Source: Mesobacillus jeotgali (GTDB lineage Bacteria; Bacillota; Bacilli; Bacillales; Cytobacillaceae). Taken from it: a DNA stretch of 64,000 nucleotides. The notes below the pieces were generated by a model. The model saw only the letters and a program-made list of their open reading frames with translations. It was not told where the DNA came from and searched no databases. Positions 58,727 through 60,862 of the stretch are shown here, in pieces; the stretch's first letter is position 1; the number at the start of each line of letters is the position of its first letter. The translations under genes and the position numbers were made by a program. The DNA lies in the NCBI RefSeq assembly GCF_031759225.1, contig NZ_CP134494.1, positions 3,036,501-3,100,500 on the forward strand. The letters are read 5' to 3'.

Positions 58727-60862
58727 CTATTTATCTTTGACTCTCAAAAGCCTCAAGCCATTCAGAGTGACAATCAAGGTCGCTCCCATATCTGCGAAAA
58801 TCGCGATCCACAGGGTGAGCCAGCCAGGAATGACAAGCAGCAGGGCCAGCAATTTCACGCCAATTGAAAAAGCAATGTTTTGCTTGATAATAGCCAGTGT
58901 TTTGCGGCTTAATTTTATTGTGAACGGCAGTTTTTTCAAATCATCTGCCATCAAGGCGATATCAGCGGTTTCGAGTGCAGTATCGGTTCCAGCTCCGCCC
59001 ATTGCGACACCGACTGTAGCTGCGGCAAGTGCCGGCGCATCATTGATCCCGTCACCAACCATCGCGACTTTCCCATGGTTTTTCTGTAAAGCCTTTATGA
59101 AATTCAACTTCTCTTCAGGAAGCAAATCGGACTGGATATCCGACACGCCTGCCTGGCTGCCAATTGCCCGGGCAGTCCCTTTATTGTCCCCTGTCAGCAT
59201 GATTGTTTTTTCAACGCCAAGCTCGTGCAGACGAGATACCACTTCCTTGCTTGACTCTCTCACTTCATCGGCAACCGCAATTAACGCAAGCAAGCTGGTT
59301 TGTGAGCCTACTACCATAACGGTTTTCCCTTCCGATTGCATACCAGCAATTTTTTCAGAGACAGCAGATGGTATTCCCCCATCCACTATTTCCTCAAGGT
59401 ATTTAGGGCTGCCAACATGATACCTGACTCCGTCAACAACAGCTTTTATCCCTTTACCAGTTACCGAAGTGAAATCTTCAACCTGCTTTTCCCTGAAAAG
59501 AACTCCTTCCGTTTCTGCCTTGCGGACGATTGCAGCAGCAAGCGGATGTTGTGATTTGTTTTCAACAGCTGCCACCACTGATAAAAGCTCGGTGTGGTCT
59601 GCAGATGCAAGCATCTCGAAGTCAGTAACTGCTGGAATACCTTTAGTCAGCGTCCCGGTTTTATCAAAGGCAACTGCTTTGAGCATGCCCATTTCTTCCA
59701 AATAGACTCCGCCCTTAACCAATACACCATTTTTAGCCGCATTGCCAATCGCGGTCACGATAGACACCGGTGTCGAAATCACGAGTGCGCATGGGCAGCC
59801 GACAACAAGGACAGCCAGCCCCTGATAGATCCAATCACTCCAATCTGCATTAAACAAAAGCGGCGGTACAATCGCAACCAGGAAGGCAACCAAGATAATA
59901 ATCGGTGTATAATACTTTGCGAACCGGTCCACGAAAGCCTGCGAAGGTGCCTTTTCCGCCTGTGCCTCTTCGACAAGGTGAATGATTTTGGCAATCGTTG
60001 TATCATCGACCAGTTTAGTGATTTCAACTTCGATGAGACCCTCCCCATTCAGTGTCCCGGCAAACACCTCATCGCCTATCTTCTTATATGCTGGTACAGA
60101 TTCACCTGTAATTGCCGCCTGATTGACAGCCGATGAACCAGCAACGACTTCACCATCCATCGCAATTTTTTCACCAGGTTTTACAATCATGATATCGCCG
60201 ACTTGTATCTCATTTACATGAACACTGTATTCCCTGCCATTCCGGCGAACTAGCGCTTCTTTTGGGGCGATATCCATTAACGAACGGATCGAGGCCCTCG
60301 CCTTATCCATTGAATACCTCTCAAGCACTTCACTAATCGCAAATAAAATGACGACGACGGCTCCCTCGCTCCATTCGCCAATGATGGCAGCACCGATAAT
60401 GGCCACAGTCATCAGTGCCCTCATGTCAAAATCAAGCTTGAGAAGATTCTTGATTCCACTTTTGAAAAGGGAGAAGCCGCCTATGATAATCGCGCCTAAG
60501 AATAAAAAGATCGCGGGCACACTTCCTTCACCATAATTAAACTGAAAATAATAGGCGGCAATGATCATCACGAGGCTGATCAGTACCTTAGAATTTTCCT
60601 GCCAGAACGGCTTCTTTTTTTCAGGAAGAATCTCGGCTTTATCTGGATAAAGCCTCAGGTTCTCAAAAGCGCCCGCATGCTCCAGGGCCTCAATCGAGGC
60701 TTTCCCGTAAACCGTCAGCTTGGAAGCGCCAAAATTAACTTTTGCATCAAAAACACCATCCAGGTGCTTTACGTTCTCTTCGAACTTCCCGGCACAGCTC
60801 GCTCAGGTGAAGCCCTGTACCCGGTATATGGTTTTCTCTCCAGATTGTGCTGCTTCAGTCAT
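58727..60862 (-). CDS. cadA: Cd/Zn/Pb P-type ATPase CadA with in-frame TGA in the metal-binding motif
   Basis: A 711-codon P1B-type ATPase that exports soft divalent metals. Order: N-terminal HMA domain (about 12-75), membrane helices, TGES actuator (252-255), the transport motif C356-P-C358 (VVGCPCALV), phospho-Asp D400 in FDKTGT, and GDGINDAPAL. The text follows S. aureus CadA closely. Codon 20 is TGA (60803-60805) where GFTCxxC has its first Cys: it reads GFT-TGA-ASCAGKF. The start ATG has AAAGGAGATGG upstream and overlaps the cadC stop. Without read-through only a product starting after codon 20 could be made; an internal start near 60571 lacks the HMA domain. Selenocysteine, nonsense mutation and base error are all possible. 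Confidence 0.85.
60764..60805 (-). promoter_or_regulatory. Candidate SECIS-like hairpin after the cadA TGA
   Basis: On the minus strand GTTC (60785-60782) pairs with GAAC (60776-60773) around a GAAGA loop, and GTGC pairs with GCAC below an internal loop. The loop G is 22 bases after TGA, inside the range for bacterial SECIS elements. Stems are only four pairs each, and a rival CGAGCT/AGTTCG hairpin exists, so this may be chance. Confidence 0.2.

Follow-up and report, generated by a model that had tools for sequence, protein, structure and literature searches.

Does an in-frame TGA codon near the start of a metal pump gene mark a broken gene, or is it read as selenocysteine (Sec)? This question is raised by cadA of Mesobacillus jeotgali, which lies on the minus strand (58727..60862) of the 64,000-nucleotide stretch of DNA analysed here, referred to as the window, and in which codon 20 (60803..60805, minus strand) is TGA. 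The initial annotation proposed a Sec-using metal pump, and regarded a fresh mutation or a base error as the simpler reading. The data described below suggest that UGA codon 20 of cadA is almost certainly decoded as Sec. For the reading as a whole, namely a predicted 711-residue P1B-2 exporter of cadmium, zinc or lead in which UGA is translated as Sec and forms part of a UxxC metal site, we estimate a probability of about 0.93.

The cadA gene and its product

The gene comprises 712 codons including the stop, which ends at 58727. An AGGAG ribosome-binding site, recognized from the sequence at 60873..60877 (minus strand), precedes the ATG at 60862-60860, and both had been pointed out correctly in the initial annotation. 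If the TGA is taken as a residue, the frame stays open over 711 amino acids, with this single in-frame TGA, no frameshift and no further stop, which bears out the earlier claim of an intact, unshifted P-type ATPase frame. The codon is found in the context VQGFT-TGA-ASCAGKFE (longer: MTEAAQSGEKTIYRVQGFT-TGA-ASCAGKFEENV). In the program-made list of open reading frames, cadA is represented solely by a frame of 614 amino acids with a GTG start at 60571. Upstream of cadA, and overlapping its start by 8 nt, lies cadC (60855..61241, minus strand), which encodes an ArsR/SmtB metal-sensing repressor (NF033788, 91.9 bits, cut-off 55). A relative of CadC is present at 27 of 29 loci of CadA with TGA at this codon (U-CadA), and at 85 of the 94 collection-scan loci that hold at least 900 bases upstream. 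Elsewhere in the window, an FMN riboswitch (3519-3651, minus strand; 122.2 bits) is the sole Rfam match above cut-off.

CadA scores 625.5 bits against TIGR01525 (cut-off 346.25) and 539.8 bits against TIGR01512 (cut-off 313.5), and the Pfam models HMA, E1-E2_ATPase and Hydrolase all exceed their cut-offs. The HMA metal-binding domain covers residues 13-59 (60686..60826, minus strand; PF00403, 38.2 bits, cut-off 24.8). The CPC transmembrane metal site (residues 356-358; 59789..59797, minus strand), a motif of the homologues, has kept its cysteines; CPC is present in all 82 U forms and all 28 Cys forms. Asp691 in the last helix is D in 81 of 82 U forms (the remaining one is partial and the site absent) and in 28 of 28 Cys forms. 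CadA hence combines the family models, the HMA domain, TGES, CPC, DKTGT (from residue 400) and the last-helix Asp that define P1B-2 (CadA/ZntA) ATPases. Export of Cd, Zn or Pb is predicted from the family and from the gene context, with CadC beside the window cadA, and CadD, a MerR-type regulator and CadC beside a paralogue.

Conservation of the TGA codon and its link to Sec decoding

The read-through CadA was searched against 121 genomes, a sample with one genome per species, and 110 homologues were taken, i.e. the listed matches that extend to codon 20 with an identity of 56% or more, including a partial one. This codon is TGA in 82 homologues, TGT in 19 and TGC in 9, with neither TAA nor TAG in any. 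An in-frame UGA where homologues have Cys is a mark of selenoprotein genes, and the counts (82 TGA, 28 Cys and no other stop among 110) confirm that the TGA stands at the first Cys position of the relatives, as had been noted. The second ligand of UxxC, Cys23 (60794..60796, minus strand), had rightly been described as retained: it is encoded by TGT or TGC in all 110 homologues. Their aligned parts are free of any further stop; among distant paralogues outside this set (42-46% identity), several show stops of all three kinds. The suggestion to look for the same TGA in close relatives was borne out by orthologs (81-89% identical) in 15 of the 20 other genomes of the genus in the sample, and the clade of the window copy (16 rows) is TGA throughout. 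The same-genus genome G011 holds two TGA copies of CadA together with the Cys form of a different, cassette-borne paralogue.

One base change is enough to turn TGC or TGT into TGA, the program-made frame begins at an internal GTG, and databases hold truncated versions of the protein, all of which would fit a fresh nonsense mutation or a sequencing error, with the pump being dead or made from an internal start. However, the same TGA is found in relatives and in 72 of the 121 genomes, neither TAA nor TAG occurs at the codon in the 110 homologues, and there is no other stop. What had been considered the simpler reading does not hold up, and we regard its probability as next to nil.

The genes for Sec decoding were searched for in the M. 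jeotgali genome (4.63 Mb, one contig). Profile searches returned selA with 560.3 bits (cut-off 267.9), selB with 367.7 bits (cut-off 242.25) and selD with 393.5 bits (cut-off 125), the latter with one in-frame TGA of its own in the motif KAG-U-GCK. A tRNA-Sec with anticodon TCA scores 58.3 bits (gathering cut-off 47) and is also called by ARAGORN, and the ARAGORN call weighs more since 5 of 14 control genomes also score above the cut-off of the family model. SelA, SelB, SelD and tRNA-Sec are found in the same genome, as is typical for selenoproteins, so that the objection that the machinery might be absent falls away. This genome further encodes a formate dehydrogenase containing one TGA.

Across the sample, selA exceeds its cut-off in 90 of the 121 genomes. 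The 72 genomes with TGA-CadA are all among these 90, vs. none of the 31 selA-negative genomes (Fisher p 1.7e-16; the genomes are not independent, and only 10 of the 31 had a homologue in the 110-sequence set). Genomes with selA hold 82 of the 82 TGA copies vs. 16 of the 28 Cys copies. In the set of 110 homologues, nine selA-positive genomes have the Cys form only and five have both forms; therefore, a genome able to decode Sec need not have the Sec form. SelD served as a positive control: by hand count, all 90 selA-positive genomes have a SelD match, 89 of them with TGA, and the SelD of 8 selA-negative genomes shows TGA in none (the one of G021 is a fragment).

Several single cases were recorded along these searches. 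The SelD match in G101 (G101:C12:254771-255583) starts from profile position 42 only and has no TGA, and this genome carries a U-CadA. SelD of G042 also shows TAA. The selA of G015 (G015:C1:1845480-1846866), another genome with a U-CadA, consists of two overlapping matches.

RNA hairpins downstream of the UGA codon

Two hairpins follow the UGA in the cadA mRNA. Hairpin I (60771..60787, minus strand) has a GUUC-GAAGA-GAAC core, a loop 21 nt past the UGA and an energy of -3.5 kcal/mol; hairpin II (60750..60770, minus strand), AAAGCACC-UGGAU-GGUGUUUU, has its loop 40 nt past the UGA and an energy of -8.4 kcal/mol. In an alignment (A1) of 70 distinct TGA rows, these occupy columns 19-35 and 36-56, with the cores GUUC-GAANA-GAAC for hairpin I and CACC-UGGAU-GGUG for hairpin II, which spans columns 37-55 together with its extension of A-U pairs. 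Over both hairpins 90.3% of the cells are paired, and 6 of 13 pairs display changes on both sides (2 of 6 in hairpin I, 4 of 7 in hairpin II). None of 500 shuffles matched the TGA alignment on any of five measures and slid structures were paired to at most 47.0%, where the structure was defined after inspecting the same sequences, and where shuffle counts are not probabilities because the rows include related sequences. On 26 Cys rows the same structure is paired to 58.0%, no better than shuffles, and for hairpin II the paired cells amount to 92.7% in the TGA class vs. 44.0% in the Cys class. RNAalifold alone predicts both hairpin cores from the TGA rows, and neither of them from the Cys rows. 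Synonymous codon identity in the U genes is 0.751 in codons 21-37 vs. 0.400 in codons 61-711; the corresponding values of the Cys genes are 0.465 and 0.421.

Judged from these comparisons, the two tandem hairpins downstream of the cadA TGA are a SECIS under selection. A conserved RNA structure just past the UGA that is not maintained in Cys homologues is a further mark of selenoprotein genes, and the frozen synonymous sites and compensatory changes speak once more against a mutation or sequencing error. Stem-loops can also stimulate readthrough in general, and the hairpins might accordingly assist another suppressor, or a near-cognate reading of UGA as Cys or Trp. Against this stands that all 72 genomes with TGA-CadA have selA, that the hairpins are not conserved among Cys forms, and that hairpin II is damaged in a probable revertant (L096, see below), which leaves such decoding highly improbable and Sec insertion as the preferred reading.

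The two hairpins differ in stability. Hairpin II, with GG in its loop, has a median energy of -8.4 kcal/mol and lies at or below -7.5 kcal/mol in 62 of 65 main-class rows. The median of hairpin I is -3.5 kcal/mol, a value of -7.5 is reached in none of the 65 rows, and only 24 of 70 rows form its column pair 20-34. In an unconstrained fold of the window copy, hairpin II is kept and hairpin I is replaced. In five divergent U-CadAs (L109, L112, L126, L128, L129) a single hairpin is seen instead, its GUU loop lying 17 nt past the UGA and its energy ranging from -8.9 to -11.1 kcal/mol. By a pair-count rule, 103 of the 112 CadA loci from the collection scan have both hairpins, 7 are of the single type, and 2 combine hairpin II with the single pattern. 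In L302-L304 and L308, four CadAs of families that do not belong to this order and are 53-56% identical over the sequence available, minimum-energy folds again display two successive stem-loops, of very different sequence.

The consensus bSECIS model describes a loop of 3-9 nt with G in the first two places, a stem of 4-16 bp, a spacing of 16-37 nt and a minimum free energy of at most -7.5 (PMC13188914, section 5). No single hairpin of the main class unites all four constraints, as hairpin II, with its GG loop, lies outside the spacing (40 nt), and hairpin I, at a suitable spacing and with the loop GAANA, falls short in energy; the five divergent U-CadA rows conform to the model. The same section reports that the elements of a subset of genes fail the consensus, which is why it should not be seen as a strict requirement (PMC13188914).

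A comparable architecture is found in SelD. In 19 genomes (L018 1531-1576 and 18 others, alignment A3), two tandem hairpins follow the UGA, with 93.9% of cells paired and double changes in 5 of 12 pairs; the distal hairpin has a GUU loop 33 nt from the UGA. None of 500 shuffles was as high on four measures, and 366 of 500 were on the fifth (the number of further pair types).

A covariance model of the element was searched in 31 genomes. In the M. jeotgali genome it matches, at E up to 0.1, exactly three CadAs and no other gene (150 of 2064 first-look candidates scored). The weaker matches in other genomes include Cys CadAs, which have coding sequence in common with the U forms, as well as matches in G083 (E 0.005), G014 (E 0.044) and G011 (E 0.068). 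A further match (G004:C178:21421-21486) lies upstream of a CadA whose protein match starts at residue 137, and which is possibly a frameshifted copy.

Paralogues, Sec/Cys switches and mobility

A tree was computed from 109 proteins with residue 20 blanked, parts of which are unsure owing to several long branches. On this tree the Sec/Cys label needs 10 changes, at least 5 of which are forced by well-supported branches; the tree does not show their direction. The TGC form L096 (G029) stands beside U forms and retains a recognisable but damaged hairpin II, and is a probable case of a recent Sec-to-Cys change with a decaying SECIS.

The M. jeotgali genome has three U-CadAs. The window copy groups with 15 other copies of the same genus, the second is also found in two same-genus genomes, and the protein of the third is identical to one in a different genus. 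This third copy is part of a 5.28-kb block that is 99.94% identical to the one of the other genus (L272 7237-12519; G000:C1 about 3565236-3570518). The block contains genes for the predicted Sec-CadA, CadC, CadD, a MerR-type regulator, a CopZ-like metallochaperone and a methyltransferase, and is adjoined by transposition genes. Similarly, the Cys-form CadA of G011 and that of the selA-negative G045 lie in a common 5.27-kb block with 99.6% identity. U-CadAs are also present on Cytobacillus plasmids, and the annotated coding sequence crosses the TGA in both plasmid copies translated.

A methyltransferase relative accompanies the window cadA, and is found at 17 of 29 U-CadA loci and at all three longer U loci (L272, L274 and L276, two of which are the other M. 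jeotgali copies), as well as at 2 of 23 Cys loci, of which 20 have only about 2 kb downstream. As a constant partner of cadA the methyltransferase was rejected, being present at only 9 of the 68 loci from the collection scan whose sequence continues for 900 bases or more beyond cadA.

Distribution and database annotation

A pattern scan of the collection returned at least 120 stretches. Among the 120 listed, 112 are CadA frames with UxxC; the other eight (L136, L148, L170, L191, L213, L219, L224, L229) lie outside CadA frames and were rejected as chance matches. Of 80 stretches listed with titles, 76 are CadA and nearly all of these carry Bacillales titles (Mesobacillus, Neobacillus, Cytobacillus, Peribacillus, Halalkalibacter, Salipaludibacillus and others), the exceptions among the CadA matches listed being a Desulfoscipio MAG and one Chryseobacterium record. 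The CadAs in Mesobacillus records are 84-88% identical to the window CadA. The Chryseobacterium record (L154; JAGGQZ010000003.1, Chryseobacterium sp. ISL-80) has a CadA 86% identical to that of the window, and is probably a mislabelled Bacillaceae genome. A looser pattern matched 11 genomes in a phylum sample of 398, 8 of them in CadA including M. jeotgali; of the 10 matches outside M. jeotgali, 3 were discarded as chance and 7 are CadA.

In the 121-genome sample, U-CadA is found in 72 genomes vs. at least 52 with a U-formate dehydrogenase (FdhA, by hand count), and among the matches listed 26 genomes, one of them incomplete, have U-CadA and no U-FdhA. We tentatively hypothesize, with the odds somewhat against the idea as a whole, that Sec decoding in Bacillales may be kept to a considerable extent by metal pumps, that Sec-CadA may have been delivered repeatedly by mobile cadmium cassettes usable only in Sec-decoding hosts, and that these genes may rely on a distinct two-hairpin SECIS of spacer hairpin and distal SelB hairpin, the layout of which is common to SelD.

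In public databases many entries of the protein are truncated. Of the 120 proteins listed, 30 are at least 81% identical to this CadA; these all measure 561-674 amino acids and are recorded without an HMA domain, the probable cause being that gene calling breaks off at the Sec codon and a start further downstream is chosen. One different case is WP_082919471.1, encoded on plasmid pBO1 of Cytobacillus oceanisediminis: its annotated coding sequence spans the in-frame TGA at the same motif as in the window CadA, and therefore this annotation reads through the TGA, under a product name without selenium. None of the best 25 NCBIfam 20.0 models for the window CadA is a seleno-CadA model; the sole seleno-model among them is NF041115 (UxxU metal-binding (seleno)protein) with 23 bits vs. 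a cut-off of 95.

Possible mode of action

Metal releases CadC, as is known for this family. In M. jeotgali, metal would free CadC and the cadC-cadA mRNA would be translated from the ATG at 60862. At UGA codon 20, SelB with Sec-tRNA-Sec, held by the downstream hairpin or hairpins, would insert Sec rather than terminating. We propose a layout of UGA, spacer hairpin (I) and SelB hairpin (II), in which hairpin II may represent the SelB site. Sec20 and Cys23 would then form a soft-metal site in the N-terminal HMA domain, with the membrane CPC site retaining its Cys. Selenium might act as a better soft-metal ligand, or as a redox gate, in this regulatory domain.

Any Sec-UGA competes with termination, and 81 of 82 U genes possess an SD-like core with a start 12-24 codons ahead of the UGA. 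This may suggest a conditional stop, where selenium status would decide whether translation ends at residue 19, yielding hardly any pump or none, or continues to the complete Sec pump, making the gene a partly selenium-dependent switch. In the 82 U genes, no conserved re-initiation site was found after the UGA: the position of the next start differs between genes, and an SD-like core precedes it in 5 of them, so that nothing conserved would make use of a truncated product. Such a switch, which we consider unlikely, would moreover be an addition to Sec insertion rather than an alternative.

The support for the Sec-using metal pump of the initial annotation comes from the machinery, the conserved TGA, its restriction to selA-positive genomes of the sample and the hairpins, with Sec itself being predicted. 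The CxxC of the HMA domain is an established metal-binding motif in CadA/ZntA, which speaks for a metal site and against the view that Sec serves redox gating rather than metal affinity, with a Sec20-Cys23 selenenylsulfide switching the regulatory domain according to thiol status. On the other hand, UxxC is the motif of many thiol-redox selenoproteins (PMC13188914, table), and we consider redox gating doubtful, if worth keeping in mind.

If Sec is inserted as predicted, what looks like a cadA pseudogene would be a metal pump that depends on selenium, and many of the public CadA records in this group would end short at a Sec codon. It would suggest an unusual role of selenium, as a metal ligand in the regulatory domain of a transporter and not as a redox catalyst. 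Related genomes with Sec and Cys versions of the pump, several switches, and a SECIS that decays in what is probably a recent Cys form offer a natural experiment. The usefulness of this metal-resistance gene should depend on Sec decoding by the host.

Comparison with known systems

The best sequence matches of CadA in the PDB are 7QBZ (cadmium translocating P-type ATPase; 474.2 bits, residues 119-710) and 4UMV (zinc-transporting ATPase; 474.1 bits, residues 7-707). The window CadA has CPC and the last-helix Asp in common with these and with CadA/ZntA proteins with a Cys-type HMA domain, but differs from the latter by the predicted Sec in place of the first HMA Cys.

Sec-type pumps of this kind have been predicted before. 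Cation-transporting ATPase E1-E2 (UxxC; example ABB15669.1) is listed as a predicted selenoprotein family in tables of PMC9312934 and PMC13188914, with 1 GOS sequence in PMC2398784, and with 25 organisms and 32 proteins in Table 3 of PMC5029168. The window CadA (U20-A-S-C23) fits this family of P1B ATPases with UxxC by its published description. As these entries are listed and a plasmid coding sequence already spans the UGA, Sec-CadA is a known kind, and the window gene is a real member rather than a wholly new sort of protein. For Bacillales, Table 2 of PMC1794560 gives 3 families and 3 selenoproteins, and members from this order may already be included in supplementary tables of earlier surveys. 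The published family entries, as given in these tables, differ from the present description in that they provide no SECIS anatomy, Bacillales prevalence, multiple copies or mobility. Among the best matches listed from the open-licence literature, none deals with the SECIS layout of Sec-CadA, with how widely it occurs in Bacillales or with its mobile cassettes, and the main text of the deep-Sep paper (PMC12013277) has none of the terms looked for on this subject.

With regard to the RNA element, the five divergent U-CadAs resemble the E. coli-type bSECIS (fdhF) and the consensus model, with one GUU-loop hairpin 17 nt past the UGA. FdhA of the M. jeotgali genome has a GGUCU loop, which we take to be the loop of E. 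coli fdhF. The main-class CadA and SelD, in contrast, differ from the E. coli type by their two tandem hairpins, with the GG loop of CadA 40 nt from the UGA. What appears newer, compared to the known family, is the prevalence in Bacillales, the three copies in a single genome, the 5.3-kb cadmium cassette found almost unchanged in another genus, and the two-hairpin SECIS with a layout common to selD.
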